Part shown: positions 39,479 through 62,710 of the stretch, piece after piece | How the letters are laid out: every line of letters starts with the position of its first letter | Numbering within the stretch: position 1 is the stretch's first letter | Source of the DNA: a virus | Virus record (IMG/VR): IMGVR_UViG_3300033064_004529 | Coordinates: 1 to 62,841 of that record | Direction: 5' to 3' (one strand) | Length of the DNA stretch: 62,841 nucleotides | Notes under the pieces: model-generated | Told to the model about the DNA's origin: nothing | Database searches by the model: none | The model's input: the letters and a program-made list of their open reading frames with translations, nothing else | Made by a program: the position numbers and the translations under genes

Positions 39479-39703
39479 ATGAGTAGAGTAGAGGACGTGC
39501 ATCCTAAAGCGGTTGAAATTCCAATCGCGGGGAGGAATAGGGATAGTGACTGGTTTTTGTCTAATCATATGGTTGATGCTGGTCATGTCTCTATTGAAGT
39601 TGTCTTGGATAAGGCGGCTAAGAGTTTGGTGATCTATGACCCTGTTTCTGCATATGAGTATCTTAAGAACCACTGTGAGGAGAACGGCCTATTTCAGAGT
39701 TAG
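39479..39703 (+). CDS. Hypothetical protein, 74 aa
   Basis: First gene after a TATA box and shared leader. Alpha/beta protein (VEIPIAGRNRDSDWFLSNHMVDAGHVSIEVVLDKA). The final codons (FQS, then TAG) fall in a junction signal copy (CAGAGTTA at 39695). No family recognised. Confidence 0.6.
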   Translation: MSRVEDVHPKAVEIPIAGRNRDSDWFLSNHMVDAGHVSIEVVLDKAAKSLVIYDPVSAYEYLKNHCEENGLFQS

Positions 39704-39728
39704 ATACCAAAAGAGCGAGGAATAAAAT

Positions 39729-39983
39729 ATGTATGATCCGCATGATGCAATAATAAACGAGTTCTTCAAGTTAGAACCTTGGTTCAGTGACCAGCCCAGG
39801 ACTAAGAGACTCCTTAAACGTGCTGAAAAACTACTTGGTAAAAGGCGCGTTCTTTTGGCTGAGTTGAGGACAAACGGAGGGAGCCAATATGATATTGAGG
39901 GCGCGCATGGAGATGTCTTGAACTTGGAGGAAATGACGGAGGTATTAACTCGTGTTTCGGTCCAAACAGCGAGGGAGTCCTAA
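39729..39983 (+). CDS. Hypothetical helical protein, 84 aa
   Basis: ATG preceded by GCGAGGAATAAAAT from the junction signal. Basic helical middle (RTKRLLKRAEKLLGKRRVLLAEL) could bind nucleic acid. Ends QTARES across another signal copy. Function unknown. Confidence 0.6.
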   Translation: MYDPHDAIINEFFKLEPWFSDQPRTKRLLKRAEKLLGKRRVLLAELRTNGGSQYDIEGAHGDVLNLEEMTEVLTRVSVQTARES

Positions 39984-40276
39984 TGTCTGAAATACCAGAC
40001 GAGGTTCTAATCACGGTCCCTGAACCAGAGAACGGATCAGATGAGAGCTTAAAGGAATCACTAAAAAAATATCACCTGGACCTAGACATAGACCCAGACA
40101 GCGAGGAATATCTTAATCTGTACTACAACCAAGACCTGCGATCCTTCTGTGGGTGGTCCGAGGAGTTTAACACCCTTCGGATGTTTCCTGAATACTACGC
40201 TAAAGGGTGGGAGGACACTTACTGGAAGAAACTTAAAGACGAGGCGTTAGAGTTCGTGGTTGTGAATAAACTATGA
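39983..40276 (+). CDS. Acidic hypothetical protein, 97 aa
   Basis: One-base overlap with the previous stop. Strongly acidic N-terminal half (ESLKKYHLDLDIDPDSEEY). Acidic small viral proteins may be DNA mimics, but nothing here proves it. End lies in a diverged junction signal. Confidence 0.6.
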   Translation: MSEIPDEVLITVPEPENGSDESLKESLKKYHLDLDIDPDSEEYLNLYYNQDLRSFCGWSEEFNTLRMFPEYYAKGWEDTYWKKLKDEALEFVVVNKL

Positions 40277-40488
40277 AAAAACACACATATATTGAACTCC
40301 CCTTCATGTTGTGGAAGGAACAGCATGAAAGGTTTAAGGGTGTACTCGATGAGGACTCGTATCTTTGCGAAGTTCCGAACTCTATCCCCAGTCAGCCATA
40401 CAACCCCCATCCCCAATTCACCATAAACATTTTTGGAAACAAGATCACGGTTTGGAGCATAGCCAATATCAGAGTTGTGATAGAATGA
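40273..40488 (+). CDS. Hypothetical protein, 71 aa
   Basis: Four-base ATGA overlap with the previous gene. Compact, aromatic-rich. The stop region reads ATCAGAGTTGTGATAGAATGA, a junction signal in a different frame (RVVIE). No family recognised. Confidence 0.55.
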   Translation: MKKHTYIELPFMLWKEQHERFKGVLDEDSYLCEVPNSIPSQPYNPHPQFTINIFGNKITVWSIANIRVVIE

Positions 40489-40494
40489 CGATAA

Positions 40495-41022
40495 ATGTTT
40501 TATATGGGGGAAAACAACATGGAAATGGTTAACATCATGGTGAGTGGGGGGAAACTAAGCCAACTTCAAAAGACAATTCTTAGAAAACTCGATGGGTCAG
40601 ATAAGTTCTGGGGCCTTCGTTTCGATTTACTCAGTTGGGAACTTGCCAGAGAACTAGAACAGAGTCTAGGTGACTTCATAGACAACCGAAAGGCATGGAG
40701 AGAACAAAAACTAAAAGAACTTGAGGAGAAACGTAGAAACGGCGAATTTACAACCAAAGATGTTCTTATAGAATCATATTTTTACAGAAAACGCCCTAGA
40801 CAAAAAGATGAGAGATTAACACCTAAGTGGCGATCTTCGTTTTCTCGCAGTATAAAACGACTTAAAGAGCGCGGATTTCTATATCGTGTCACTAAAATGA
40901 AGATAGAAGATCGAAACGGAAAATCTTTTTGGGTAGCATATACGGGGGGTGGATATACGAGTCGCGTAGTTCTTGAAGATGGGGGGCGTAAGTGGATAGA
41001 GGAGAATCTTCGGGGTTTGTGA
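40495..41022 (+). CDS. Winged-helix transcription regulator-like protein, 175 aa
   Basis: The frame opens at 40495; later ATGs at 40519 are possible. Residues 25-60 form a helical bundle (QLQKTILRKLDGSDKFW), residues 100-135 look like a recognition helix and wing (WRSSFSRSIKRLKERGFLYRV). Basic middle coil. A likely DNA-binding regulator of the early genes. Confidence 0.6.
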   Translation: MFYMGENNMEMVNIMVSGGKLSQLQKTILRKLDGSDKFWGLRFDLLSWELARELEQSLGDFIDNRKAWREQKLKELEEKRRNGEFTTKDVLIESYFYRKRPRQKDERLTPKWRSSFSRSIKRLKERGFLYRVTKMKIEDRNGKSFWVAYTGGGYTSRVVLEDGGRKWIEENLRGL

Positions 41023-41028
41023 TAAAGT

Positions 41029-41181
41029 ATGAATTGTCCTAAGTGTAAATCAACTCGGATCGTAATCGATGGGGTTCACATTGGGGAATATGGACAAACT
41101 GCAACTCTTCTATGTCTTGACTGTGGACATACCAATAACCCAGATTATCCTGGTTCTGGTAAAATTCAGAGTTTGCGATGA
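41029..41181 (+). CDS. Zinc-ribbon protein, 50 aa
   Basis: CPKC at residues 3-6 and CLDC later form one ribbon. Ends KIQSLR over a junction signal (CAGAGTTT at 41167). Function unknown. Confidence 0.65.
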   Translation: MNCPKCKSTRIVIDGVHIGEYGQTATLLCLDCGHTNNPDYPGSGKIQSLR

Positions 41182-41192
41182 AAGGCGATAAA

Positions 41193-41525
41193 ATGAATAT
41201 AAAAATAGATTCTAATAACCTCTCTCAAATCGCGTACGTTTCCGATGTGGAGCTTGAACAGGGACTTGAAAATATCTATCTTGGAGGAAACATGAAAGAC
41301 TTTAATGCTCACCTAATCAACGGGCGCACCTATTTTCCTTCCATCTTGATTGACGGGGAAAACCCTGCCGAAAAAATATATGAGTTGTTTTTACCCTATA
41401 TGTTGACTCATGAAACAACACACATAATAATTAATAGGTGGGAGGGTCTACAGACATCTAAAAAACTGGATAAGGTGGATAACATCTGTAAAATGACTTT
41501 GGACCCATATCATAGTTTTGAGTAA
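41193..41525 (+). CDS. Hypothetical protein with HETTH motif, 110 aa
   Basis: Start at 41193 is preferred over 41178 because AAAGGCGATAAA directly precedes it as at 45192 and 50974. Residues 79-83 read HETTH in LTHETTHIIINRW, the HExxH signature of zinc metallopeptidases. A third ligand is not obvious, so a truncated or atypical metalloprotease fold is possible. Confidence 0.55.
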   Translation: MNIKIDSNNLSQIAYVSDVELEQGLENIYLGGNMKDFNAHLINGRTYFPSILIDGENPAEKIYELFLPYMLTHETTHIIINRWEGLQTSKKLDKVDNICKMTLDPYHSFE

Positions 41526-41548
41526 ATGACGATAAAGAGGTGATGTGA

Positions 41549-41668
41549 ATGGCGAAGAAGAAAACGGGGTATCTCTGTATAAGTCCGGTCCACTTCGGGC
41601 CTGTTTCCCTTTCCACGGTTTATTCAAAGTGCCTACCCCGCAAATGTAAGGAGTTGTGTTATGGCTGA
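41549..41668 (+). CDS. Small cysteine-rich protein, 39 aa
   Basis: ATG preceded by AGAGGTGATGTGA. Begins AKKKTGYLCISPVHFG and ends CLPRKCKELC; four cysteines could bind zinc. Overlaps the next gene by eight bases. Confidence 0.5.
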   Translation: MAKKKTGYLCISPVHFGPVSLSTVYSKCLPRKCKELCYG

Positions 41669-42680: not shown

Positions 42681-42844
42681 TGCCTAAGTGTAAGAAATGT
42701 AAGAAGGAGCTTGCACTCAAGGGATTCGAGAGATACAAGGAGGAGGAACAAGTAGACATATACGCTTGCCAGACTAGGGGATGTCCCCTTAAGGACAAGA
42801 ACATTCTTCAGACTTTACCAACAACTGCGAAAGAGGTGAGTTAA
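42680..42844 (+). CDS. Zinc-ribbon protein, 54 aa
   Basis: Opens MPKCKKCKKE; second pair C-x-T-RGC completes a ribbon. Ends TLPTTAKEVS across a junction signal copy (ACAACTGCGAAAGAGGTG). Function unknown. Confidence 0.6.
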   Translation: MPKCKKCKKELALKGFERYKEEEQVDIYACQTRGCPLKDKNILQTLPTTAKEVS

Positions 42845-43047
42845 TGGTTGAAAAAAGCTGTCTAAAATGTAATGCGGTGAAGGTATGTAGCACCTGGCAG
42901 GGATTTCGCCCGTGGATCGGACAAGTATCTACCGAGCATGGTAACTATTCCAAGATGGATGAAACCTACAAGGCAATCGCAGAAATAGTCGCCAATGTCT
43001 GCTACATCTATCATGGTTTGGACTCAAGTACGAAGGAGGAAAGTTAA
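42844..43047 (+). CDS. Small cysteine protein, 67 aa
   Basis: One-base overlap with the previous stop. CLKCNAVKVC near the start and one later Cys. Ends GLDSSTKEES over a CATGGTTT-type junction signal. Function unknown. Confidence 0.55.
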   Translation: MVEKSCLKCNAVKVCSTWQGFRPWIGQVSTEHGNYSKMDETYKAIAEIVANVCYIYHGLDSSTKEES

Positions 43048-43863
43048 ATGCACTACCATAATGTGTTCTTGGTGCGGGCCTCAAACAAGCTTAGTGCCTT
43101 GAAACTAACTGAGATGTTCCTAGAGCCATATAGTGAACAGAAAGAGGTTGATCCATACAAGGATTACCTAACAGACAATGACATAGAACGGATGTGCAAG
43201 CACTACAAGATAGACCCCAACGATAAGGGGGCGGTTCTCGATAAACTCCTAGATTGGGATGGAGACGCAGGGGGGTATGATGAACATGGTAAACTCTTCC
43301 ATTGGAGGACATACAACCCCGATGGAGAATGGGACTGGAAACAGTGGGGTGGCCGATGGTCCTGGTGGGATTACTACAAGGAATACAGAGATGTTCTCTT
43401 CAAGGAATACGATCCTGAAACTGGAAGTGGAACGTATTGGAATAGGTTCCACGATTCCGAGGTGGCGGGAAAGAAGGCGACTGTAACGTTCCCAGATGGA
43501 ACGGTTCAACGAATAGACTATGGGACAGCGTACCCCTTCCAGACGTGGTGTAATGACCACCCCGAGATGTTCGAGGTGAAGGACGCGACAGACCCCAAGT
43601 TCTTCGAGTTGATTGAAACAGGAATCAAATCACACTACAAGTCGGTGACATGGTGGGAGAAACAAAAGGAGGAGCATGAGAGCAAGGACGATCCCTCGGA
43701 CATGGCTTCGTGGTATCAGAAAAAACTAGATAAGTCGGGTCAACGATGGGGGACGGCTACCTACTTCTGGAACATCACGGAAAACTCATTCGGATACAAC
43801 AAAGAAGAAATATTAGAGGAGCCGGAAAGGTGGTTCTTGGTAAATGTTGACTTACATTCGTAG
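43048..43863 (+). CDS. Hypothetical protein, 271 aa, Trp/Asp-rich
   Basis: Largest protein of this stretch. The middle is rich in Trp, Tyr and Asp (WRTYNPDGEWDWKQWGGRWSWWDYYKEY), with alternating acidic helices. I recognise no enzyme motif. Size and complexity argue for a specific role, for example host-protein inhibition, but there is no direct evidence. Confidence 0.6.
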   Translation: MHYHNVFLVRASNKLSALKLTEMFLEPYSEQKEVDPYKDYLTDNDIERMCKHYKIDPNDKGAVLDKLLDWDGDAGGYDEHGKLFHWRTYNPDGEWDWKQWGGRWSWWDYYKEYRDVLFKEYDPETGSGTYWNRFHDSEVAGKKATVTFPDGTVQRIDYGTAYPFQTWCNDHPEMFEVKDATDPKFFELIETGIKSHYKSVTWWEKQKEEHESKDDPSDMASWYQKKLDKSGQRWGTATYFWNITENSFGYNKEEILEEPERWFLVNVDLHS

Positions 43864-43886
43864 TTTAACTTCAAAGGTGAAAACGG

Positions 43887-44186
43887 ATGGATGAAGAAAC
43901 GGAATATCTTAGTATAAGTTCCGCGGGAATTGAAGAAGTAGAGATTCACATGCCCGAGAGAAGTCCTTGGAACTTCTTTCAGCAGTTAGTGAGAGAGCGT
44001 CCAGAACTGGACCAACGCCTTATCTATCTTCATTGGTTCATAAACAAACACCGAAGAGAAGCAGGAAAGGCGGAAAAAACCATCAGAGAAACATGCTATG
44101 ACTTACTCGAACATGTAGTAAACCAATGGACGGAGATTGACGAAGATGTTCGGAGTTTAGAATCAACTGCGAGGAATGTGGAATGA
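43887..44186 (+). CDS. Hypothetical helical protein, 99 aa
   Basis: ATG after AAAGGTGAAAACGG, the junction-signal leader. Helical and charged; ends SLESTARNVE over another signal copy (ATCAACTGCGAGGAATG). Overlaps the next gene by four bases. Confidence 0.6.
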   Translation: MDEETEYLSISSAGIEEVEIHMPERSPWNFFQQLVRERPELDQRLIYLHWFINKHRREAGKAEKTIRETCYDLLEHVVNQWTEIDEDVRSLESTARNVE

Positions 44187-44485: not shown

Positions 44486-44520
44486 AGGTTCATAGTTCAA
44501 CAGGAAGTGCGATAGAATGA
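44482..44520 (+). other. Tag-only mini reading frame, 12 codons
   Basis: An ATG overlapping the previous stop opens a frame encoding only MKVHSSTGSAIE, which is the translated junction signal (CATAGTTC at 44491). It seems to be a junction signal with its own start but no gene body. Translation is uncertain. Confidence 0.3.
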
Positions 44521-44678
44521 AAATGGTTTCAGTTATAAAAATGGTACATTGTCCTGATGGAAGAACGCGCAAATCACTTAGGGATTGTATGGAGTGTAAG
44601 AATCACCTGAACTTGCTTTTCTCAGAGCATGTCCAATGCGACTATCAGAGTTCGACACAAAGGACGAATGAAACATGA
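44517..44678 (+). CDS. Small zinc protein, 53 aa, DCxxCxxH family
   Basis: Pattern CPDGR ... RDCMECKNHL ... VQCDYQSS matches the proteins at 38511 and 45406. Ends in a junction signal (CAGAGTTC at 44646). Function unknown; metal binding is inferred. Confidence 0.6.
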   Translation: MKMVSVIKMVHCPDGRTRKSLRDCMECKNHLNLLFSEHVQCDYQSSTQRTNET

Positions 44679-44833: not shown

Positions 44834-44863
44834 TTCACACTTTACACCGAAGAGTGATATGAA

Positions 44864-45163: not shown

Positions 45164-45191
45164 TTCGTGGTTTGTCAAGAAGGGCGATAAA

Positions 45192-45405: not shown

Positions 45406-45564
45406 ATGAGAGAAATTCAAATAGAAAAACTTGTGATGTGTCCTTGGGCACACGATCACTATGAGGCGCTTGATGACTGCGAAAAGTGTGAACACCACTC
45501 TGAACGATTTTTCCTTATGCATGTAAAATGTACTTATCAGAGTTCGGGGGAAAAGGCGAAGTGA
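45406..45564 (+). CDS. Small zinc protein, 52 aa, DCxxCxxH family
   Basis: CPWAH ... DDCEKCEHH ... VKCTYQSSGEKAK: same spacing of metal ligands as 38511 and 44517. C-terminal residues are the translated junction signal (CAGAGTTC at 45538). Overlaps the next GTG start by four bases. Confidence 0.6.
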   Translation: MREIQIEKLVMCPWAHDHYEALDDCEKCEHHSERFFLMHVKCTYQSSGEKAK

Positions 45565-45764: not shown

Positions 45765-46038
45765 GTGGGGTACGGATGTAGAGGTACAAGTAACTGTGCC
45801 AGCAGATGAAAGTTATACGGGGGAGGACCGCGTGGATATTAAGAAGGTTGATGCGTGTATCGCACCCATCGTTAAGGCACTCAATGAGGTGGGGATACGA
45901 ACGGACAGTTCTTGTTGCGGTCATTTTAAACGGGATGGGTGGATAGTATTGCACGACGGGAGGGAGTTGGTGATACGCCCCAACGAACGATATAGTTGTA
46001 TCACAAATCCTCAGAGTTCAGGAGAAACAGCGAAATGA
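45757..46038 (+). CDS. Conserved phage-type hypothetical protein, 93 aa
   Basis: The segment VDACIAPIVKALNEVGIRTDSSCCGHFKRDG-x-I-x-LHDGRELVI matches a small protein found in many phages and prophages, with an invariant SCCGH centre; its function is not known to me. Ends NPQSSGETAK over a junction signal (CAGAGTTC at 46012). Confidence 0.65.
   Translation: MCKWGTDVEVQVTVPADESYTGEDRVDIKKVDACIAPIVKALNEVGIRTDSSCCGHFKRDGWIVLHDGRELVIRPNERYSCITNPQSSGETAK
46012..46037 (+). repeat. Junction signal copy (CAGAGTTC type)
   Basis: CAGAGTTC-AGGAGAA-ACAGCGAAATG across the end of one gene and the start of the next. Confidence 0.7.
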
Positions 46039-46199
46039 AGTGTCCTAATTGTGAGGCGGATGCCTTTCTTGTGAATCCAAAACATGATATTTGGCAGTGT
46101 TCAGAGTCAGGCACGATATATGAGAAGAAACCCTGTATGTATGGGTGTTTTTTCGGAGTTGTTACTAAACCACGAGGAGACGAACATGAACCTAGATAA
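46035..46199 (+). CDS. Zinc-ribbon protein, 54 aa
   Basis: CPNCEADAF and later C-x13-C residues; resembles a single ribbon (WQCSESGTIY). ATGA overlap with the previous gene. The end runs through a junction signal in another frame (GVVTKPRGDEH). Confidence 0.6.
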   Translation: MKCPNCEADAFLVNPKHDIWQCSESGTIYEKKPCMYGCFFGVVTKPRGDEHEPR

Positions 46200-46661: not shown

Positions 46662-46720
46662 AAGCAAACGGTTCTTTTCTCTGTGTCTTCTCTAATGGAA
46701 TACAATAGCCATAGTGTACC

Positions 46721-47074
46721 TGAAACCCACTCTAAAGGTGCGAGCCAAAGGCATAATGAACTCCATTCACGTATTGCGAGCCACCTCGATGATGAAGCCC
46801 ATGGGGAAGATGCGAGCCATATCACAAGTGAAACCCATTGAATTACTGCGAGTCAGCCAGAAATGAAATGAAGACCATTCTAACGTTGCGAGCCAAGAAT
46901 AAAGTGAAACCCATGTTTTGTATGCAAGTCATAACAACAGTGAAGCCCAAGTGTGTATTACGAGCCAACACCCCCATGAAACCCAAGATTAGGGTGCGAG
47001 CCATTAGTAAAGTGAAGCCCATGCTAATATGCGAGCCAAGTCAGCGATGAAACCCACGATAATGATGCGATGTT
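46721..47074 (+). repeat. TIGR-type dual-repeat guide array, ten units
   Basis: Two alternating 9-base repeats, TGAAACCCA and TGCGAGCCA (both fit TGMRASCCA), are separated by variable 9-base spacers, so each unit is 36 bases. Unit starts: 46721, 46757, 46793, 46829, 46869, 46905, 46941, 46977, 47013, 47048. Minor repeat variants occur (TGAAGCCCA, TGAACTCCA, TGCAAGTCA, TACGAGCCA). One spacer is 13 bases (46856-46868), one 8. The last loop repeat is degenerate (TGCGATGTT). This is the layout reported for TIGR arrays that yield 36-nt tigRNAs. Confidence 0.9.
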
Positions 47075-47141: not shown

Positions 47142-48026
47142 ATGTTAAAAATCAAAACTCGTTACGATAGTACCCCGTGGATTCAATCCACCAAAGAAGC
47201 CGTGAAGCTCCTCACCACAGGAGACTGGCACGCACTCGACAAATGGGGCATATGCCCCCCCGCCTTCTCAACCAAAGAAGGCACACCCCTGCACCCAAGC
47301 AAAGTCCAGAAGAAAATCTACCGTGAAACCGTTAAACTCTGCAAGAAAATAGGGCATGTAGACGTAGCCATCCTCATGGGAGACATGGCGGAAGGAAAAC
47401 AGTCGAAGGCGTTCGGAGTACCCCTCATGGACGCGGACACCGACAACCAGGTTGAAGCTGCTTTCCAGTTCTACGAGGCGACCGTCCATGAACACTGCAC
47501 CCCGGATATTGTACTTGCCATCATGGGGACGCCCTACCACCGGTCCGTCGGAATAGGCGGAGACCTTGATTATCAGGTGGCGTCTAAAATCGCCCAGTTG
47601 GATAATGTCATTTTTGGACAACCGAACTTGAGCTTCCTACTCGGGAAGGATAAGGTCAGGTGGAACCTTCAGCACCGAGTCAGTATAGCCCGAGTCAACC
47701 GCATGATGCCCCTAGAGAAAACCTACCGCTTCTACAACAATCTGGAGCTTATGAGCTGGACTGGAAACCCTAAGCGTGTGCCGGACATGGTGGTTCGGGC
47801 GCACAGACACGACCCGCAAGTACCCTTCCCATTGGGGCAAGGGCGCAGGTGGGCTATGGTGACTCCCCCCCTCAAGGTGGTGGACGAGTACGCGTCTGTG
47901 ATGGCGTATCCTGTGGGTCCAACCAGCGCGGGATTGATGACCGTGAAACAGTATGGATTGGGTGACTTTGCAGGTAAATACTATCCCATCAAGGTCGAAA
48001 CTGATTCAGTGGAGGTGATAGGGTGA
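47142..48026 (+). CDS. Calcineurin-like metallophosphoesterase, 294 aa
   Basis: All family motifs are present: GDWH at 27-30, GD at 80-81 (ILMGDMAEG), GTPYH at 129-133 in place of GNHD, H178 and H221-x-H223 (RAHRHDP). This fold covers protein phosphatases, 2',3'-cyclic nucleotide enzymes and Mre11-type nucleases. It has its own promoter and overlaps the Tas-like gene by four bases (GTGA), between two guide arrays. A nuclease partner for the nuclease-less Tas is possible but unproven. Confidence 0.85.
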   Translation: MLKIKTRYDSTPWIQSTKEAVKLLTTGDWHALDKWGICPPAFSTKEGTPLHPSKVQKKIYRETVKLCKKIGHVDVAILMGDMAEGKQSKAFGVPLMDADTDNQVEAAFQFYEATVHEHCTPDIVLAIMGTPYHRSVGIGGDLDYQVASKIAQLDNVIFGQPNLSFLLGKDKVRWNLQHRVSIARVNRMMPLEKTYRFYNNLELMSWTGNPKRVPDMVVRAHRHDPQVPFPLGQGRRWAMVTPPLKVVDEYASVMAYPVGPTSAGLMTVKQYGLGDFAGKYYPIKVETDSVEVIG

Positions 48027-49045
48027 CGCCTAAAGCCATTCCCGGCGTGAAACCCAAGCCCACCGTGCGAGAAGAGAAGGTGGACCTTGTTACCTTCACT
48101 GAATCCGACACAGTGGAAGATGCTGTCCGTCGTCATAAGCGGGCTGAACGCAAAGTCCTCAGAGAAGCCCTTGGAATAACCCTTGGAGAACTCATGATAG
48201 GCGCAGACTTTGAGACCCTTACACGTGACTTGTGGACCGTAGACGATACAAAGAACCGGATAGGACATCAAGTCAGAGCCACCGTGCAGAACAGACTACT
48301 CCGGCGCTCTCCCTACTGGGGTGAAATCAAGGCACTGAGAAAGAGTAAGGAATCGGATCGTAAGGAGATAGCTAAACTCATCAAGAAGGCGTCCAAGGAG
48401 CTAGGTTATGAGGAGAATGAGATCACAAAGCAACGGGACTTGGCGTTGGCACAGCACACCACCTATCAACTTATGGATATTATGAAGAATGAAATAGCCA
48501 AGGCACTCACAGGGGAACTAATCAAGATGCCCTTATGGAACGGTTACCTTCAACACGTTGTCGGTATCAGCACCCTCACCGCCTCCAAGCTCATCTATCT
48601 CGTGAAGGATGTAACCCGATTCAGCCAGCCCTCTAAACTGTTAAAGTATTCGGGACTAGCCGTGACAGACGGGAAGCCCGACCGCCCGAAGCGAGGCGTG
48701 GAACTGAACTACAACCCCGAACTCAAAGCCCTTCTACTCGGAGTCATCGGAGACAACTTCATCAAGTCGAAAAGCCAGTACCGAGTAATCTACGACAGAC
48801 GCAAGGCGTACACCGCCCAGCACCGCCCCGAGTGGGGAATCAACCCGAAGACGAAGAAGGAGAACTATAAGGCACACTACCACGCCGACGCCCGCAGAAT
48901 AATGGTGAAGCGCTTCGTCACCGAGTTCTGGAAGGCGGGATACCTCGCCGCGGGGTTGGAGGTGCCGACTCAGCCATATGCCGTGAGGATTCTTGGGCAT
49001 GATTTGGAGGAGGACGTTGTAAGTTATGTGCCACAAGATGAATGA
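48023..49045 (+). CDS. Tas-like RNA-guided protein with Nop/IS110-type domain, no nuclease, 340 aa
   Basis: GTG start with an ideal GGAGGTGA site at 48011-48018. Residues 105-165 form a basic coiled coil. Residues 168-310 match the IS110 C-terminal/Nop-like domain (PLWNGYLQHVVGISTLTASKLIYL, FSQPSKLLKYSGLA, RGVELNYNPELKALLLGVI, a Tyr/Arg helix and a final helix). The N-terminal DEDD RuvC domain of IS110 is absent, the catalytic SG is replaced by DG (217), and no HNH or RuvC motif is seen. With the flanking 36-base arrays this best fits a Nop-only Tas protein. Acts presumably as a tigRNA-bound DNA-binding complex. Confidence 0.8.
   Translation: MTPKAIPGVKPKPTVREEKVDLVTFTESDTVEDAVRRHKRAERKVLREALGITLGELMIGADFETLTRDLWTVDDTKNRIGHQVRATVQNRLLRRSPYWGEIKALRKSKESDRKEIAKLIKKASKELGYEENEITKQRDLALAQHTTYQLMDIMKNEIAKALTGELIKMPLWNGYLQHVVGISTLTASKLIYLVKDVTRFSQPSKLLKYSGLAVTDGKPDRPKRGVELNYNPELKALLLGVIGDNFIKSKSQYRVIYDRRKAYTAQHRPEWGINPKTKKENYKAHYHADARRIMVKRFVTEFWKAGYLAAGLEVPTQPYAVRILGHDLEEDVVSYVPQDE
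48048..48074 (+). repeat. Guide-array unit inside the tas coding start
   Basis: TGAAACCCA (48048-48056), a nine-base gap, then TGCGAGAAG (48066-48074) whose first six bases match the second repeat. It encodes the early residues VKPKPTVRE of the Tas-like protein. Exact 9-base spacing makes chance unlikely. Confidence 0.65.
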
Positions 49046-51529: not shown

Positions 51530-51547
51530 TTCAAGGGGAAAGGCGAA

Positions 51548-53832: not shown

Positions 53833-53978
53833 AGGTTGAAGATTTCTTAGAATATCTCTTCGAGTGTTTTCCCAATGCCAAGGTAAGCATTGAACGCGTG
53901 TCCCACTATGAACGGCCCCACAAGAAGTACACCATAATCGTCGAGGAGAAGCTCCCCGTTAAGTCGGGGGGTTCATAG
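53829..53978 (+). CDS. Hypothetical protein, 49 aa
   Basis: TTG start within the previous stop. Alpha/beta (FLEYLFECFPNAKVSIERV ... YTIIVEEKL). Ends over a CATAGTTT-type signal. No family recognised. Confidence 0.5.
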   Translation: MKVEDFLEYLFECFPNAKVSIERVSHYERPHKKYTIIVEEKLPVKSGGS

Positions 53979-53998
53979 TTTGACATCAACAGTGAGGG

Positions 53999-54184
53999 AT
54001 GAAGATGGGTAACATAAAGGAAATCAAAATCATTATGCGAAAGGCAGGTATGCTAAGAACACCGGGAGATATGATTACAATCACCGATGATGACCTTGAA
54101 AGCTACAATCGCGTTCGAGAGGCGTTACAAGTTCTTACCGAGGATATTCATGGTTTAGCCTCAAGTCCGAAGGAGGGAGAGTAA
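53999..54184 (+). CDS. Hypothetical protein, 61 aa
   Basis: ATG after the signal leader ACAGTGAGGG. Helical; ends GLASSPKEGE over a CATGGTTT-type signal. No family recognised. Confidence 0.55.
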   Translation: MKMGNIKEIKIIMRKAGMLRTPGDMITITDDDLESYNRVREALQVLTEDIHGLASSPKEGE

Positions 54185-54540
54185 TGGCAATTAGGTGGAG
54201 AAGGGATGGGCGCCTCATGTGTGCGGCGACGACGGGGCCGGAGGAAGGGGATACGTATATTGGCGATAGGCTAACCTACGAGTTAAGCGTGATATTAAAA
54301 GTAATAGTTGCGGACAAGGACCATAAAAAAAACAGTTTATGGCACTGGACACAGAATAAAATGGCGGCTGAAAACGTTGAAACGGACATCAAATATGGAT
54401 ATGAGGTGGAGGAATTGGATGGCGCCCTTCATTATCGGGGCTCATCTACTGATTGGTGCTGGTTTAAACTCAGCGAGATGCCTCAAGCCTACAAAGACCT
54501 AGTTCAGAGTTCCGATACAACTGCGAAGGAGGGGCCCTAA
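54184..54540 (+). CDS. Hypothetical protein, 118 aa
   Basis: One-base overlap. Beta-rich (YIGDRLTYELSVILKVIVADKDH) with Trp-rich middle. Ends VQSSDTTAKEGP over a full junction signal (CAGAGTTC at 54505). Confidence 0.55.
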   Translation: MAIRWRRDGRLMCAATTGPEEGDTYIGDRLTYELSVILKVIVADKDHKKNSLWHWTQNKMAAENVETDIKYGYEVEELDGALHYRGSSTDWCWFKLSEMPQAYKDLVQSSDTTAKEGP

Positions 54541-54704
54541 TGCAAATAATATCTGTTGAACCAATAGCCCAAGACATTGAAATTGACGGTGTAAAATACT
54601 ATTGGGTTGGGTCTAGAATGGATGTAGAAACCCTCCCCCGTTTTATAAACACCTTCATCACAACTCAGAGTTCTGAGACAAGTACGAAGAAGGTGGAAGA
54701 ATGA
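54540..54704 (+). CDS. Hypothetical protein, 54 aa
   Basis: TAATG overlap. Beta-rich start (IISVEPIAQDIEIDGVKYYWVGS); ends TTQSSETSTKKVEE over a junction signal (CAGAGTTC at 54666). Confidence 0.55.
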   Translation: MQIISVEPIAQDIEIDGVKYYWVGSRMDVETLPRFINTFITTQSSETSTKKVEE

Positions 54705-55141
54705 AGGACCAAGAGTTTTGGGACGCCCTAGATAAATCGGGGATAATTAGTTGGGATGGAGAGGATTGGACGTTCAATAACAGCCGTGTCGAGGAACTGC
54801 TTGAGAGGGAACGCAAGTTCTTTACATTCAAGGACATGTATGTGACGGCATCAGATAAACTTCTGAAGTATTCCAACGCTGAGGAGTGGATTGGTGAACG
54901 ATTTTCTCCGGTCCCACGACGAATAGTTGACCTCATGCTATGGTTCAAACAACACGAGGTTTACAACGATAAGGGATGGAACGAGTGTTGGAACATCGTC
55001 CTTCCTTATGTCAAAGAGTTGGCTGAGTTTTATCAGAGTTCTAAACCAACAGCGAAGCACGAACACCCCGCCTCTAGCGACCCCGATGCTTGCCCTATCT
55101 GTGGTTCTGGGCATAGTTGCGATTGTAATCCTCATGGTTAG
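54701..55141 (+). CDS. Helical protein with C-terminal zinc knuckle, 146 aa
   Basis: Residues 1-110 are helical and acidic. The junction signal is read as YQSSKPTAK (about 112-120), after which 26 residues add CPICGSGHSCDC. The signal therefore lies inside this gene, as if a short zinc cassette were fused behind it. Confidence 0.6.
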   Translation: MKDQEFWDALDKSGIISWDGEDWTFNNSRVEELLERERKFFTFKDMYVTASDKLLKYSNAEEWIGERFSPVPRRIVDLMLWFKQHEVYNDKGWNECWNIVLPYVKELAEFYQSSKPTAKHEHPASSDPDACPICGSGHSCDCNPHG

Positions 55142-56263: not shown

Positions 56264-56393
56264 AATTATAATGTCGGAACCGGATTGGTACATTGAGGAG
56301 AAATTTTATGAGTTATATGCTCAACTACTTTCAATGACTGAGGATGAACTTGAGTTTAATATAGTTCATAGTTCGGAGGGAACCGTGAAGTGA
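56253..56393 (+). CDS. Hypothetical protein, 46 aa
   Basis: Overlaps the previous gene by 11 bases. Helical, acidic; ends IVHSSEGTVK, the junction signal (CATAGTTC at 56367). GTGA overlap on the right. Confidence 0.5.
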   Translation: MKIKIIMSEPDWYIEEKFYELYAQLLSMTEDELEFNIVHSSEGTVK

Positions 56394-56557
56394 CCTCACC
56401 AATTTGTCCTAATTGTAAATGTAATTGCCAACCAATTTGCCGAGTGCCAATTCATCCAGAAGTTGAACTATATGACATCTATCTGTGGCAGTGTTCAAAC
56501 TGTAAGACGGTCTTTCCTACCTTTACCCCTCATACTTTGGAGGAAACCATGAAGTGA
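56390..56557 (+). CDS. Zinc-ribbon protein, 55 aa
   Basis: GTG start. CPNCKCNC and CSNCKTVF form a ribbon. Its end (HTLEETMK) lies in a signal copy. Function unknown. Confidence 0.55.
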   Translation: MTSPICPNCKCNCQPICRVPIHPEVELYDIYLWQCSNCKTVFPTFTPHTLEETMK

Positions 56558-56667
56558 AAGCATATTACCCATACGCAAAAACGGTCTACCAAGGCGAGAA
56601 GTACATGACGATACAATTCATGCTATGGTGGTTTTCGCTGTTTAAGGAGAAGAGTGATGCTGGATAA
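56554..56667 (+). CDS. Hypothetical protein, 37 aa
   Basis: GTG start in a GTGA overlap. Aromatic-rich (YYPYAKTVYQGEKYM ... MLWWFSLF). End overlaps the next start. Very short; coding supported only by overlaps on both sides. Confidence 0.4.
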   Translation: MKAYYPYAKTVYQGEKYMTIQFMLWWFSLFKEKSDAG

Positions 56668-56854
56668 ATGGGAGGGCGTCTGCCCCAAGTGCCGCGTGGA
56701 GATGATTCACATCAACGGATCTAGCACCTGGCAGTGTTCCTCCCCGTCTGAGGTGTGTCATGTGTGGGGGATTAAGTTGAAGCGGGTTAAGGCTGATAAC
56801 GGACCCTTTATGTACGTGATTGATCGGGTTATATATGAGGCGACTCCAATATGA
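56657..56854 (+). CDS. Zinc-ribbon protein, 65 aa
   Basis: CPKCRVEM and WQCSS-x4-C suggest one zinc site. Precedes radA with a four-base overlap, so it may be co-translated with the recombinase. Function unknown. Confidence 0.6.
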   Translation: MLDKWEGVCPKCRVEMIHINGSSTWQCSSPSEVCHVWGIKLKRVKADNGPFMYVIDRVIYEATPI

Positions 56855-57873
56855 GTGACTTAGTTGAGCTTGAAGCGGGGATTCTTCCGGGAGTTTCCAA
56901 ACCCACGATAGATAAAATCAGAGCGGTCGGTATCACCACCGTTGATGTGCTTGGAAGGCAGGTTCCTAAGGCCCTAGCCGACGAGGCGGGAATAGGGGAG
57001 GATACCGCTGAACGTGCCATCAATAAGGCCACCGCCTTTATTTCCGAAGGGTTCATAACGGGTAAACAACTTAGGGATAAATACAATGCGCGGACCCGAC
57101 TTCTAACTGGAAGCACCGCACTTGACGCGCTTCTTGGGGGGGGCATAGAGTCTGAGACTACGACGGAGTTCTTCGGTGAGTTCAAGTCAGGTAAGAGCCA
57201 GGTGTGCCTCACCTTAGCCGTCCTAGCTCAGCAACCCATAGAGAGGGGGGGGCTGGGTGGGCGGGTGGCGTGGATTGATACAGAGGACACCTTTCGCCCT
57301 AACCGGATTGCACAGATAGCTCAGGCTAGGGGGTTGGACGCTGAGGTCGCCCTCGATGGGATTCTCCACGCCGTCGCCTACAATACTTCCCATCAAACGA
57401 TTCTCATTAACCAGCTTTATAGCTTATGCCCTGAGAAAAACGTTAAACTCATCATAGTTGACAGTATAATCGGTCATCTTAGAAGTGAATATATTGGGCG
57501 GGGGATGTTGAGTTCACGACAGGACCAACTGAAGAAGATGGTTCATGTTCTCATGAAATTGAGCCTATCCACGAAAACTACGGTAGTCTATACCAACCAA
57601 GTGTTAAGCACCCCAGACATGTACGGTAAACGGATAAACCCGACGGGGGGGCACGTCATGGCCCACGCCGCTACGACCAGGGTGTTCCTCAAGAAACCAT
57701 CAAATGACTTGGTGACTTCCCGAGTTGCCATGTTGTATGACAGTAGTTATCTTCCTCCTGGAGAGGCGCCGTTTGAGATTTCCGAGATGGGGATAGATGA
57801 CACGAAGGGGACCAAGGAAGAGTTGAAGAAACATGCAGAGAAAATGGCCGAAGTGGATGACCCTGCCGCTTGA
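56851..57873 (+). CDS. radA: RadA recombinase, 340 aa
   Basis: Archaeal RadA layout: helix-hairpin-helix domain at 9-65 (LPGVSKPTIDKIRAVGITTVDVL), linker, then the RecA core. Walker A is GEFKSGKS at 109-116, Walker B LIIVDS at 200-205, with the RSEYIGRGMLSSRQDQL segment and the L2 region near TGGHVMAHAATTRVFLKK. Forms filaments on single-stranded DNA and promotes strand exchange. The only clear replication/recombination enzyme seen, and a strong sign of an archaeal host. Confidence 0.95.
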   Translation: MSDLVELEAGILPGVSKPTIDKIRAVGITTVDVLGRQVPKALADEAGIGEDTAERAINKATAFISEGFITGKQLRDKYNARTRLLTGSTALDALLGGGIESETTTEFFGEFKSGKSQVCLTLAVLAQQPIERGGLGGRVAWIDTEDTFRPNRIAQIAQARGLDAEVALDGILHAVAYNTSHQTILINQLYSLCPEKNVKLIIVDSIIGHLRSEYIGRGMLSSRQDQLKKMVHVLMKLSLSTKTTVVYTNQVLSTPDMYGKRINPTGGHVMAHAATTRVFLKKPSNDLVTSRVAMLYDSSYLPPGEAPFEISEMGIDDTKGTKEELKKHAEKMAEVDDPAA

Positions 57874-58124: not shown

Positions 58125-58212
58125 GCGGCTGAAGCAGATTAAGACGGCGCTTGAACGCTACCTGGAACGCTTCGACTCAGAGTTTATGAAGAAAGGCGAA
58201 GACGATGAGTGA
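58102..58212 (+). CDS. Small basic helical protein, 36 aa
   Basis: Start inside the previous gene. Amphipathic basic helix (KRLKQIKTALERYLERFDSE); end falls in a junction signal (CAGAGTTT at 58178) in frame SEFMKKGEDDE. Function unknown. Confidence 0.5.
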   Translation: MHQQIPSKRLKQIKTALERYLERFDSEFMKKGEDDE

Positions 58213-58480
58213 AACAGAGTTCCCACAATTCGGACATCATTGGAGAAATGAGCACGTGTATGGTGAGGTTGAGGCGTTCGATATTGGTGCTGTAGAGAGC
58301 TGGTTCAAGCGATGTTTGGAAGATAAACCAAACCCAGAAGATATAGCGTTTAATCTATATTATAATTTCACTAGTCCGCCTGTACTGTTCATGCACCTAG
58401 AGATAAAATATCTGAAGGCGTTTGAGTCATGGTATGAGAAATGGTTTTCGCAGTTTAATGAAAAGGGCGAAGATGAATGA
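58205..58480 (+). CDS. Hypothetical acidic protein, 91 aa
   Basis: Aromatic and acidic (EDKPNPEDIAFNLYYNFTSP ... WYEKWFSQFNEKGEDE). The C-terminus reads a junction signal in the same frame as the previous gene (FNEKGEDE versus FMKKGEDDE), so these two neighbours share a tail. Function unknown. Confidence 0.55.
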   Translation: MSETEFPQFGHHWRNEHVYGEVEAFDIGAVESWFKRCLEDKPNPEDIAFNLYYNFTSPPVLFMHLEIKYLKAFESWYEKWFSQFNEKGEDE

Positions 58481-58602: not shown

Positions 58603-58771
58603 GTGTCACTCTACCTTGGGGAAGGCTCGCCTCGATGTGTGGTGGTGCAAGTATTGTCAGACATCGTGGATCATACATCAACTTTCATACAAGACCAGGG
58701 AGGAAGCATCCGCGGTTTCAGATGAGGCATCCGCCAGACACAACTTCTTCGGACTTTCCCCTAAACAGTGA
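58589..58771 (+). CDS. Zinc-ribbon protein, 60 aa
   Basis: Start at 58589 opens on MYCPKCHSTLG; second pair CKYC completes a ribbon. Last plus-strand gene before the minus-strand block. I see nothing in 58772-58859. Confidence 0.6.
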   Translation: MYCPKCHSTLGKARLDVWWCKYCQTSWIIHQLSYKTREEASAVSDEASARHNFFGLSPKQ

Positions 58772-60426: not shown

Positions 60427-60579
60427 ATGACATATCCAGAAAAATTCAAACGTGATGAAAAAATAGAACAAATGCTTTTTGTATTGGGTGCCCCTATCCT
60501 TGGCGTTCTTCTTATTAGACTCGTTAATGTGAGGATGATGCTTCGTCGTTCTAATCAAACCACGAGGAAACAAGAATGA
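60427..60579 (+). CDS. Single-span membrane protein, 50 aa
   Basis: Charged start, then MLFVLGAPILGVLLIRLV span, then basic tail RRSNQTTRKQE from a junction signal (GTCGTTCTAATCAAACCACG). Function unknown. Confidence 0.6.
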   Translation: MTYPEKFKRDEKIEQMLFVLGAPILGVLLIRLVNVRMMLRRSNQTTRKQE

Positions 60580-60962
60580 AACTAATGGAATTTCTTCAAC
60601 TAGTTAATGTTGTTGAGCGAAAGGTCTACCCTAGAGGGCGAAGATTTTATGTTCCACTTGATGACATCATAGACGTATTGCAGAGAAACGACTTGGAAGT
60701 ACGAAATAGACCAACCCCTTGGTCCATATCTGCTGATATATCTTCCTTAACAGACTTAGGCGTTGATGAGGCCCGCGATGCTCTGATGCCAATTCTCCGG
60801 AAGTGGGCTAACCGAGAGGCGAGAGAGCGACATAACATAAGTCCCCCGAAGCCTCTTTGTGCTGCCGATCCCGACTGTGATAACTGTGAGACCGACGTAG
60901 ATTGTGGGGGCAAGGAAGAACTTCGCCCTTCTGAGCAAAGTACGAAGGTGAATGAGAAATGA
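60576..60962 (+). CDS. Hypothetical protein with Cys cluster, 128 aa
   Basis: ATGA overlap. Helical DNA-binding-like start (LMEFLQLVNVVERKVYPRGRRFYVPLDDIIDVLQ). C-terminal CAADPDCDNCETDVDCGG could bind metal. Ends LRPSEQSTKVNEK over a CTTCGCCC-type signal. Confidence 0.55.
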   Translation: MKLMEFLQLVNVVERKVYPRGRRFYVPLDDIIDVLQRNDLEVRNRPTPWSISADISSLTDLGVDEARDALMPILRKWANREARERHNISPPKPLCAADPDCDNCETDVDCGGKEELRPSEQSTKVNEK

Positions 60963-61207
60963 TGCGCGTTGATTGTTACTTGGAAGACTGTAACGAACCA
61001 GCCGGAGGGTATTCGGTTGAAAGTCCAAACCTCGACCAAGGTTGGTGTAAAGAATGTCATCAACAGATTGGTTCCATTACTTTAACTTATTATTTCTGTA
61101 CCCCCGAACATGCACTTCAATGGTTGCAAGAACACATTCAGAGTTTGTCAGAGAGTGCGATAAATACTATAAATACTGAGAAGGAGAATGCTAATAAGGT
61201 TGAATAG
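60959..61207 (+). CDS. Zinc protein, 82 aa
   Basis: CYLEDCNEPAGG, CKECHQQ and FCTPEHALQWL: a zinc site followed by a helix. Ends IQSLSESAINTINTEKEN, a junction signal (CAGAGTTT at 61139) plus a short repeat AATACT. Function unknown. Confidence 0.55.
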   Translation: MMRVDCYLEDCNEPAGGYSVESPNLDQGWCKECHQQIGSITLTYYFCTPEHALQWLQEHIQSLSESAINTINTEKENANKVE

Positions 61208-61221
61208 CCCATTCGATAACC

Positions 61222-61734
61222 ATGAGTCGAACGAAGGAGTGTACGAAGTGTGGCGCCTCTAAGTCCATCACTGACTTCTCCAAACATAGACTTGGCAAGG
61301 ACGGATATGCCTATCAATGTAAGGCGTGTAACGCAACACGAGCAAGGAAATGGCGTAAAACACCCTCCGGAGTCTATACAAACCTTAAAGGACAAGCACA
61401 GTTTTGGCAAGACAAACCATTTCATCTCGAAAAGGAAGCGTTTATCGAGTGGCATAATAGCCAACCTAAGAAGTGCATTTACTGTGATATTCCCGAGGAA
61501 CTTGTAATGATTATGCATGACTACTTTGGCGTGACTGCGTTTCGCCTTACCGTTGATTGTAAGGATAATGACCGAGGATATTATCTGGATAACATTGTTC
61601 TCTCTTGTGCCAACTGTAACCGCATGAAGGGTAATATGCTTACATTCGAGGAGATGATGTATGTGGGTCAAAACTTCGTTAAACCTAAGTGGCAAGAAAT
61701 ATCAGAAAGTGCGAAGACGGAGGTGGGAGAATGA
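61222..61734 (+). CDS. HNH endonuclease, 170 aa
   Basis: N-terminal zinc knuckle (CTKCGASKSITDF ... CKAC), basic linker, then an HNH-type core (CIYCDIPEELV ... LTVDCKDNDRGYYLDNIVLSCANCNRMKGN). Ends EISESAKTEVGE in the junction-signal frame, so this endonuclease is itself bounded by the signal. Confidence 0.85.
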   Translation: MSRTKECTKCGASKSITDFSKHRLGKDGYAYQCKACNATRARKWRKTPSGVYTNLKGQAQFWQDKPFHLEKEAFIEWHNSQPKKCIYCDIPEELVMIMHDYFGVTAFRLTVDCKDNDRGYYLDNIVLSCANCNRMKGNMLTFEEMMYVGQNFVKPKWQEISESAKTEVGE

Positions 61735-61892
61735 GTGAAAAAAAGGATAAAATAGAGTTTAGTTGGGCCGAGTTTATATCTATCTTTGCACAGACATTAC
61801 TTGAAAAGGAATACTGTCCAGAGTTCGTGGCTAAATCAAGTGCCGAACTATTCCTCCAAGTTAAGGACATGGAGACCTATCTGAATGAGTGA
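61731..61892 (+). CDS. Hypothetical acidic protein, 53 aa
   Basis: Start at 61731 follows GGAGGTGGGAGA. Helical acidic chain (KIEFSWAEFISIFAQTLLEKEY). Overlaps the next start. No family recognised. Confidence 0.55.
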   Translation: MSEKKDKIEFSWAEFISIFAQTLLEKEYCPEFVAKSSAELFLQVKDMETYLNE

Positions 61893-62094
61893 TTCTCAGA
61901 GTTCATACCCAAAGGCGAACTTCAATGATTTGCTTGCGGAATGGATAGACTCAGTTACTGCCAGCTCGGATTATAAGCGGCGCGAAGATGGAACTTTCGA
62001 TTGGATAGTTTGGATTACTTGGGGCGGAGAGGATTTCAACAAATTCATCCATTCTCGCCTTTCACCCACAACGGCGAATGAGGGGGTGAACTGA
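61885..62094 (+). CDS. Hypothetical protein, 69 aa
   Basis: Its first codons carry a junction signal (MSDSQSSYPKANFN; CAGAGTTC at 61897) and its end carries another (LSPTTANEGVN), so the gene is bracketed. Acidic, Trp-rich. No family recognised. Confidence 0.55.
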   Translation: MSDSQSSYPKANFNDLLAEWIDSVTASSDYKRREDGTFDWIVWITWGGEDFNKFIHSRLSPTTANEGVN

Positions 62095-62300
62095 TGGTAA
62101 GAATATTGCTTGAAACGGACATCAAGAAAAAAGATTTACCCGACTGCTTTGGGACTTGTCTTGGTGGGACTGAGTGTTGGGAGGCATGCGGTGATGGAAA
62201 CTCCCGTTATGTAAAGTGCCTCCTTCAAGGAAAAGCCCTCATTGACGAAGCTCTTGAGTCGGAATTACTTCAAGAAGAGGCGGGGGTCTGGGCTAAGTGA
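62094..62300 (+). CDS. Hypothetical cysteine-containing protein, 68 aa
   Basis: One-base overlap. CFGTCLGGTECWEACG ... CLLQG: several cysteines of a possible metal site, then an acidic helix. Function unknown. Confidence 0.55.
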   Translation: MVRILLETDIKKKDLPDCFGTCLGGTECWEACGDGNSRYVKCLLQGKALIDEALESELLQEEAGVWAK

Positions 62301-62320
62301 CTCGTTCAAAAGAGGAGTTT

Positions 62321-62452
62321 ATGGGTTATAAAACCTGTGAGGGCTGTGAAGAGCAGATTCTAGTCATTACTGGAAAATCTGAGTTCTGTGCCTTCTGTGG
62401 TGGAAAACTTCAGAGTTCAACACCAACAGCGAACAGGGAGATAGAGAAATGA
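62321..62452 (+). CDS. Zinc-ribbon protein, 43 aa
   Basis: Start at 62321 is preferred because AGAGGAGTTT precedes it. CEGCEEQ and CAFCGGK form one ribbon. Ends LQSSTPTANREIEK, a full junction signal. Confidence 0.6.
   Translation: MGYKTCEGCEEQILVITGKSEFCAFCGGKLQSSTPTANREIEK
62411..62438 (+). repeat. Junction signal copy (CAGAGTTC type)
   Basis: CAGAGTTC-AACACCA-ACAGCGAACAGGG; one of the most complete copies, at the end of a 43-residue zinc gene. Confidence 0.7.
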
Positions 62453-62676
62453 AGGAGGATTCGATAATAATCGTCTCCAACAACATTACGTTAATGCTTG
62501 AAAACAACGATGGTTTTCCCGCAGAACGAAAGGAACTCTACCTCAAGGCATTTTGCGATGTTCTAAGTGCAGTGGATAAGGATCAACTATGGGATATCTA
62601 TGCCCTTATATTCAATGATGCGTTAAATGCGTTTACCAAGAGATTTCCGAATACCAATGCAAAGGTGAGTGAGTGA
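62449..62676 (+). CDS. Hypothetical helical protein, 75 aa
   Basis: ATGA overlap. Helical and acidic (NNITLMLENNDGFPAERKELYLKAFCDVLSAVDKDQLW). Followed by a CATGGTTC-type junction signal at 62682. No family recognised. Confidence 0.55.
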   Translation: MKEDSIIIVSNNITLMLENNDGFPAERKELYLKAFCDVLSAVDKDQLWDIYALIFNDALNAFTKRFPNTNAKVSE

Positions 62677-62710
62677 ACATTCATGGTTCAGTGGCAAAGG
62701 CGAGGAATGA

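Follow-up and report, generated by a model that had tools for sequence, protein, structure and literature searches.

Small plus-strand genes run from about 36 kb to the end of a 62,841-nucleotide virus record (IMG/VR IMGVR_UViG_3300033064_004529; this whole 62.8-kb stretch is referred to as the window), separated by copies of a 23-bp imperfect dyad, each with its own 7-bp middle. We directly observed the dyad, its rigid spacing, 7-mers that are unique in the window and exactly shared with related viruses, their local order, the unrelated contents between them and a constant reading phase. From sequence comparison, we consider it probable (roughly 60%) that the sites form a cassette-exchange array with an address for each slot, in which recombination goes through matching 7-bp overlaps as in the dif modules of Acinetobacter.

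A rigid dyad in an archaeal virus and its relatives

The site has a fixed spacing, T-C-R-N-N-N-T-T-[7 bp]-A-A-N-N-N-Y-G-A, and lies at small-gene junctions, with arms of 8 bp each (TCRNNNTT and AANNNYGA) around the middle. Across the 46 high-quality window sites, the consensus reads T(0) C R N N N T T B N5 V A A N N N Y G A(22), with B and V standing for the lack of A at position 8 and of T at position 14 throughout this set; T occupies position 0 in 98% of sites, and A stands at position 22. Overall, the strict pattern matched the window plus strand 45 times, with 41 matches in 36.1-62.8 kb, compared with a first-order Markov expectation of 0.7 on both strands. Both strands together gave 66 matches, most of those on the minus strand being the same dyads. 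Thresholds and the strict pattern were fixed after viewing the window and its closest relative (G001, below). Middles were unused in choosing sites except at position 8, where Y was favored or required, and column shuffles preserve that position. These definitions yielded 60 scored, 46 high-quality and 42 strict sites in the window, and 42, 26 and 20, respectively, in G001.

An earlier note on this DNA, made from the letters alone, had described a signal dispersed over more than 30 junctions, which is borne out: of its 34 anchors, 32 have a scored site no more than 16 bp away (21 of the 23 main anchors and all 11 'diverged' ones) and 28 have a strict site in that range. At the two exceptions, 39695 and 55597, the left half is present and the right half is displaced by 1-2 bases, and the anchor list omits 14 of the array set's 42 strict sites. 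The note's two half-signals both exist, as parts of one 23-bp dyad instead of separate elements. Its gap of 7-12 bases gave way to a rigid spacing: the basic pattern (C, 4 bases, TTY, 6 bases, AA, 2 bases, R, CGA) had 35 plus-strand matches, with none at a spacing one base shorter and one at a spacing one base longer. Because CAGAGTTC alone, with up to one mismatch, was only modestly enriched (85 versus 56), we regard the full dyad as the signal.

The window encodes tailed-virus genes (terminase, portal and S78 protease) on the minus strand. The major capsid protein shows 30-31% identity to its counterparts in haloarchaeal Druskaviridae (HVTV-1, HCTV-1 and HCTV-5) and 24% to that of vir519 (recorded host, Methanofastidiosa), the portal also matches vir519, and a RadA gene lies at 56851-57873. 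Given these capsid and portal matches to archaeal viruses and the presence of RadA, the window is an archaeal tailed virus.

IMG/VR searches revealed three related contigs from a single source, sample 3300009034: G001 (53.7 kb; portal 69% and capsid 72% identical to the window), G002 (14.5 kb, structural genes only; capsid 69%) and G003 (34 kb; capsid 65%). The portal query recovered G001, the major capsid protein all three, and a tail protein search of viral contigs G001 and G003 only. Some of the four records (window and relatives) are fragments and possibly incomplete. The window-type array also occurs in G001 (20 strict matches in 17.7 kb; Markov expectation, 0.1 on both strands) and at the left end of G003. 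A scan of related viruses, which the earlier note had proposed, thus found the signal in both, with unrelated genes between sites. The array comparison rests on three genomes with unannotated open reading frames (ORFs) and hand-set site definitions.

Wider searches added no further array. A terminase search of viral contigs gave 11 loci with partial query matches at 29-30% identity, none with a site by the basic pattern, and genome contigs searched with the capsid and tail proteins contained no relative. One site-pattern scan of viral contigs returned 38 loci with one exact match each, which is about chance level; two further scans returned 3 loci (one true relative) and 64 loci (two true relatives, no new array). 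The strict pattern was not found in the first 50 kb each of HVTV-1 and HCTV-5 (~102-kb genomes), in all of vir519 or in the 44 kb examined of the 144-kb HGTV-1 genome.

Middles, order and gene content across genomes

No middle is repeated within the window array, and many are shared exactly between genomes. The scored sets of the window and G001 (60 versus 42 sites) have 19 middles in common, compared with 0.43 under a column-shuffle null (maximum, 5 in 2,000). The high-quality sets (46 and 26) share 17 (null, 0.34; maximum, 4) and the strict sets (42 and 20) share 12 (null, 0.25; maximum, 4 in 10,000), with random genomic 7-mers giving 0.07 for the strict sets (maximum, 2). The window and G003 share 4 middles (null, 0.12; maximum, 3), and G001 and G003 share 5 (null, 0.06; maximum, 2). 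Identity between the window and G001 is near all-or-none, with 19 pairs at distance 0 and 4 at distance 1, two of the latter involving CAGGGGA of G001 and two weak GTT-G sites.

The kept block is exactly positions 8-14. As an independent check on its edges, 21 pairs picked on positions 9-13 only agreed at position 8 in 19 cases and at position 14 in 19 (background, 0.35 and 0.30), compared with 13 at position 5 (0.64), 7 at position 17 (0.30) and 6 at position 18 (0.28). Matched-pair analyses used 18 of the 19 shared middles, leaving out 43565 with L061:2949 (weak context); here and below, L061 positions refer to G001 and L063 positions to G003. Identity at 8-14 in these 18 pairs is 100% by selection. 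Around it, matched pairs were hardly distinguishable from random site pairs at positions 1-5 (0.53 versus 0.50), 17-22 (0.51 versus 0.52), 23-35 (0.38 versus 0.32) and 30-59 bases upstream (0.21 versus 0.25). Right-arm positions 20-21 are CG in 32 of 42 window sites and in 0 of 20 G001 sites (Fisher, 3e-9). It is as if the arms follow the lineage's protein and the middles must match partners.

Local order is also kept. Numbered by window rank, the matched slots run in G001 as 1, 2, 13-18, 4, 5, 9, 3, 8, 6, 7, 10-12, so that 10 of 17 adjacencies are retained (null mean, 0.95; maximum, 7 in 100,000 shuffles), and the run TGTCAGA-CATACCC-CACCCAC-CAACACC has the same order in all three array genomes.

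The genes in these slots show no such conservation. Searching window ORFs against all ORFs of the relatives using blastp, structural proteins were mostly about 50-73% identical, whereas 39.5-62.8 kb yielded one short accessory match (41549-41668) and one marginal match to an antisense ORF (56390-56557, E 8e-4). A sensitive search of 119 plus-strand ORFs of the window array region against 81 from G001 and 18 from G003 gave one match at E<1e-3, plus weak ones, including 62297-62452 against L061:10366-10764 (E 0.002) beside the matched CAACACC site. The earlier note's statement that genes between copies are unrelated therefore holds across genomes too. With shared middles in order, unrelated ORFs between them and structural proteins still conserved, the sites stay and the genes change: arms and genes have diverged, and the middles have not.

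Sites and their counterparts are as follows.

39479-62841 (+), array region: small genes separated by sites, contents unrelated to G001 and G003
631-652 (+), site: middle CAGCGTC; last of the array, next gene convergent; strict pattern
39951-39972 (+), site: CGGTCCA; strict pattern
41011-41032 (+), site: TGTGATA; also G001 L061:4841
41167-41188 (+), site: TGCGATG; also G001 L061:5330
41511-41532 (+), site: TTGAGTA
42809-42830 (+), site: TACCAAC
43012-43033 (+), site: TGGACTC
43859-43880 (+), site: TAACTTC; also G001 L061:12270
44151-44172 (+), site: TAGAATC
44491-44512 (+), site: CAACAGG; also G001 L061:11531
44646-44667 (+), site: CGACACA; also G001 L061:11748
44836-44857 (+), site: TACACCG
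45166-45187 (+), site: TGTCAAG; also G001 L061:13164
45538-45559 (+), site: CGGGGGA
46012-46033 (+), site: CAGGAGA; one base off G001 L061:13823 CAGGGGA
46154-46175 (+), GTT-G class site: GTTACTA; also G001 L061:13939; scored site
49723-49744 (+), site: CAATATC
50049-50070 (+), site: CAACCTC
50231-50252 (+), site: CAGCCCC
50530-50551 (+), site: CTACGCC
50781-50802 (+), site: CTGCATC
50939-50960 (+), site: TAGCTAC; also G001 L061:12537
51142-51163 (+), site: CATGTCA; also G001 L061:12034
51525-51546 (+), site: CAAGGGG; also G001 L061:16551
51766-51787 (+), site: CGGGAGG; also G001 L061:16876; scored site
51978-51999 (+), site: TGGGAGA; also G001 L061:17093
53645-53666 (+), site: CAAGCAC
53974-53995 (+), site: TGACATC
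54149-54170 (+), site: TAGCCTC; scored site
54505-54526 (+), site: CCGATAC
54666-54687 (+), site: CTGAGAC
55034-55055 (+), site: CTAAACC; inside ORF 54701-55141
56367-56388 (+), site: CGGAGGG
56531-56552 (+), site: TGGAGGA
56636-56657 (+), site: TAAGGAG; weaker context
58178-58199 (+), site: TATGAAG
58449-58470 (+), site: TAATGAA
58559-58580 (+), site: TGTCCAC
58750-58771 (+), site: TCCCCTA; weaker context
60544-60565 (+), site: CTAATCA; also G001 L061:9549
60924-60945 (+), site: CTGAGCA; also G001 L061:9691
61139-61160 (+), site: TGTCAGA; also G001 L061:10131, G003 L063:810; scored site
61897-61918 (+), site: CATACCC; also G001 L061:10372, G003 L063:1013
62056-62077 (+), site: CACCCAC; also G001 L061:10570, G003 L063:1172
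62411-62432 (+), site: CAACACC; also G001 L061:10720, G003 L063:1414
62682-62703 (+), site: CAGTGGC
24452-24473 (-), outlying site in the structural region: oriented with its minus-strand genes; adjoins genes 24284-24451 and 24474-24977; strict pattern
23546-23567 (-), outlying site in the structural region: adjoins the 3' end of gene 23568-24284; strict pattern

Genes 23568-24284 and 24284-24451, which are bounded by the two outlying strict sites, both lack relatives in G001-G003. A subclass with GTT-G for GTT-Y, often in another reading phase, occurs at 40255, 40470, 45388 and 46154 in the window and at L061 3805, 4230, 13939 and 16070 in G001, with the middle GTTACTA exactly common to both. 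The slot TGTCAGA-CATACCC holds an Endonuclease VII/HNH-like gene (61222-61734) in the window and unrelated genes in G001 and G003. A NUMOD3 match (5.5e-46) was found in one of the 119 window proteins scanned.

Proposed recombination and competing explanations

An arm dyad around 7 bp that are identical between partners and different within a genome has the layout of a conservative site-specific recombination core. Strand exchange by archaeal and lambda-type tyrosine recombinases takes place across an overlap, which is a 7-bp region in lambda according to the part of PMC8371274 that treats these cores. Compared with a lambda-type core (inverted arms flanking a 6-8-bp overlap), the virus sites have 8-bp arms, a 7-bp middle and rigid spacing, and the overlap is identical between partners; this is consistent with recombination rather than proof of it. 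We infer strand exchange, its need for 7-bp identity and an enzyme as follows. Each site would be a site-specific recombination core, two 8-bp inverted arms around a 7-bp overlap, with the overlap sequence of each slot serving as its address. The arms would be bound by a recombinase, either host-encoded or unrecognized in the records. When two related viruses meet in one cell, strands would be exchanged between sites with identical 7 bp, and the one- or two-gene cassette between two addresses would be replaced by the partner's content there. Differing addresses would protect the intervening genes from deletion by sites on the same genome.

Coding geometry is compatible with such replacement. 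Phase 0 (site base 1 being codon base 1) holds the longest upstream open frame at 31 of the 42 window sites (P 1.4e-7) and at 14 of the 20 G001 sites (P 0.001). Of the 42 window sites, 36 have a phase-0 stop within 60 bases, and at 23 the first such stop overlaps an ATG as ATGA. Given this bias and the near stops, the upstream gene usually continues across the site and ends in the next gene's leader, making the site a standard connector; under the proposed mechanism, the constant phase would let an upstream gene enter the replacement and stop at once.

Avoidance of similar addresses points the same way. In the window, no pair of strict middles lies within one mismatch (expected, 4.6; P 0.004) and only one pair of scored middles does (expected, 5.8; P 0.013). 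Depletion at distances 0-1 fits a rule by which near-identical overlaps would recombine and be lost. Among Acinetobacter dif modules, recombination was still possible with a one-base spacer mismatch in the cases covered by the relevant part of PMC13141974.

Several results weigh against a cassette-exchange array. No Phage_integrase (PF00589) or Resolvase domain was found in the four records at E<=1, some of them fragmentary; the PF00589 search matched in all 14 control genomes. No genome pair is close enough for viewing a single exchange, only three genomes carry the array, and the three relatives come from one metagenome. Because the arms differ genome-wide, recent cassette exchange between the window and G001 is argued against, and each probably exchanges with its own close relatives. 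The middles AACTTC, AGCTAC and ATGTCA have shifted relative order, and one block lies elsewhere in G001. Depletion of near-identical middles is non-significant in G001 (P 0.18-0.39; strict, 0 versus 0.9, P 0.39; scored, 1 versus 3.0, P 0.19), which also holds one duplicated middle, GAAAAGG, in weak sites. Finally, high-quality window pairs are in excess at distance <=2 (cumulative, 61 versus 40), as are pairs at distance 2 in the union of 59 distinct middles from the window and G001 (85 versus 50 expected). This excess is not a simple prediction of the model; new addresses may descend from old ones. A checksum code was tried and rejected as its source, with 14-bit linear parity giving only a trivial position-8 rule and the best Z4 checksum fitting 33 of 59 middles compared with 28-32 in 12 shuffled controls.

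Among the alternatives, the strongest, which we nevertheless think unlikely, makes the dyad a regulatory or translation-linked junction site, with genes swapped by ordinary or microhomology recombination (for example, by the viral RadA) and no dedicated recombinase. The RadA gene and the failure to find an integrase or resolvase in the four records favor it, as do the 11 bp common to matched sites (TT+7+AA) and the similar role proposed for the T4 PeSL and the HGTV-1 motif in the passage on them in PMC3950731. It gives no reason for exactly 7 bp to remain identical while adjacent arm positions drift, it leaves unexplained both the uniqueness of the middles and the avoidance of near-identical ones within the window, and TATA-like boxes are not enriched at the sites.

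Less probable still is a trans-acting RNA or protein that reads each 7-mer and sets expression of the slot's gene, the genes being replaced otherwise and the address kept. Sites lie just before the next start codon, seeds are typically 7 nt long, and exact middles beside unrelated genes fit an external reader. Yet no clustered copies of the middles, as in a guide array, occur elsewhere in the window (9-mers including flanks gave 31 non-own matches versus ~22 expected), site 631 ends the last plus-strand gene before a convergent gene and so has no plus-strand gene downstream, and neither the dyad arms nor the replacement boundaries at sites are explained.

That slot-mates are true orthologues diverged beyond recognition, with only the end DNA signal kept, is disfavored as very improbable. 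The syntenic order of sites and the weak match by the CAACACC slot support it, but gene number per slot differs, the ten kept slots show no correlation in length (rho 0.06, n=10), and a single match at E<1e-3 among 119 x 99 ORFs is hard to reconcile with structural proteins that remain so similar.

We give almost no credence to a promoter, ribosome-binding or RNA-hairpin signal or C-terminal peptide tag without a role in recombination, since none explains the shared middles, although the fixed position by stop and start codons, the phase-0 frame and a right arm that in relatives often overlaps the ribosome-binding site (often containing GGTGA in G001 and G003) speak for one. Arm pairing was at or below shuffled levels (window, 79 of 184 versus 87.4; G001, 53 of 104 versus 52.2), and the commonest window arm combination was A at position 2 with C at position 20 (21 of 46). 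A TATA-like box was found in the 45 bases upstream at 3 of 41 sites (background, 7.6%). In phase 0, the third base of codon 2 is always T and that of codon 5 is A with few exceptions; because these bases are fixed and the amino acid is free, selection acts on DNA and not on a peptide. The earlier note had offered an RNA-processing or translation signal beside its cassette boundary. As a main function, the former finds no support in arm pairing, TATA-like enrichment or site 631, and a local signal is disfavored because exactly the same 7 bases stand beside unrelated genes in another genome. The boundary gains strong comparative support from kept middles, kept local order and unrelated genes, with exchange and enzyme as inferred components.

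By eye, a second start-proximal motif, (T)TGACC(G/T)AAGATG or CGACCGAAGATG, was seen at the ORF starts 39479, 49322 and 53447. In places a TATA-like stretch lies ~25 bases upstream of it, and these are probably the true promoters of transcription units.

Known systems and implications

The dif-module principle is already known. On Acinetobacter Rep_3 plasmids, gene modules likewise lie between sites whose arms are conserved and whose spacers vary (pdif sites, XerC/D). Those sites are 28 bp, occur in both orientations with 6-bp spacers and enclose toxin-antitoxin (TA) or resistance modules, whereas the virus sites are ~23 bp with 7-bp middles in one orientation, usually with one small gene per slot, and in tailed archaeal viruses provide dozens of different addresses whose local order is kept. 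Their arms are not Xer arms, no Xer gene was found, and they lack the layout of 11-bp XerC and XerD arms around 6 bp in the pdif table of PMC13141974. Bearing on replacement between identical spacers, the viruses show unrelated contents between identical middles in distant relatives, with no single event observed.

The promoter early stem-loop (PeSL) of T4-type phages and a pre-ORF motif of HGTV-1, an archaeal tailed virus, are likewise dispersed at many small-gene junctions and were proposed as drivers of genome shuffling in the passage of PMC3950731 that treats them. That passage describes no slot-specific conserved middles, and its HGTV-1 motif combines a TATA-like box with an inverted repeat upstream of ORFs, unlike the virus sites with their lack of TATA enrichment. 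Start-associated sequences (SAS) and extended SAS (ESAS) of cluster K mycobacteriophages, as presented in the relevant section of PMC3203893, are also dispersed, mostly in one orientation, beside starts, and their inverted-repeat consensus varies by subcluster and is kept beside different gene families, as here. The same section gives SAS as an asymmetric 13-mer, GGGATAGGAGCCC, and ESAS as 17-bp repeats with 4-13-bp spacers; the virus sites correspond to neither, and ESAS track gene families whereas the array keeps the slot and not the gene. Serine integrase recombinational assembly (SIRA) with phiC31 orders cassettes using sites that differ only in the overlap and permits gene replacement at a chosen position, as described in the part of PMC3936721 concerned. 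SIRA is engineered and uses a serine integrase, whereas the virus array is natural. Integron cassettes resemble the array in having one small gene plus a 3'-end site, in tandem and co-oriented; they differ in having long, structured attC sites and in taking up cassettes at attI. No integron-type tyrosine integrase was found in the four records (PF00589, E<=1). Our literature searches on such motifs and mechanisms, which were not exhaustive, yielded no apparent natural array of uniquely addressed sites conserved across genomes.

More tentatively, and at somewhat under even odds, this tailed archaeal virus lineage may maintain a natural orthogonal address system: a common 7-bp recombination vocabulary in which at least two mismatches nearly always separate any pair of addresses, kept letter-perfect by population-wide matching, with genes turning over completely and even arms changing with the recombinase. 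If true, the virus would be a multi-slot rack for accessory genes, which bears on how viruses gain and lose small accessory gene sets without operon breakage, a question usually answered with a vague 'modular mosaicism'. The sequence itself reveals boundaries, matching rule and slot order, which makes the prediction that exchange occurs only between identical 7-mers directly testable. The dif-module principle would then extend to viruses and archaea, accessory genes would be findable by slot, and a recombinase with many orthogonal 7-bp addresses, useful in ordered DNA assembly, would be indicated.

One candidate for the enzyme, an IS110-type protein, was rejected: a Transposase_20 match occurs only in the window (48545-48670), with none in G001-G003. 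The gene concerned, 48023-49045, encodes a partial Transposase_20 (IS110-type) domain and has distant relatives in Microcystis phage Mvi-JY20 and Acidianus tailed spindle virus. At 46703-47070 lies an array with an 18-bp period, in which 9-bp repeats alternating between TGAAACCCA and TGCGAGCCA are separated by 9-bp variable spacers over ~20 units. One further unit (48048) falls inside the start of gene 48023-49045 and three lie just after its stop (49043-49087); the whole looks like a miniature guide-like or binding array.

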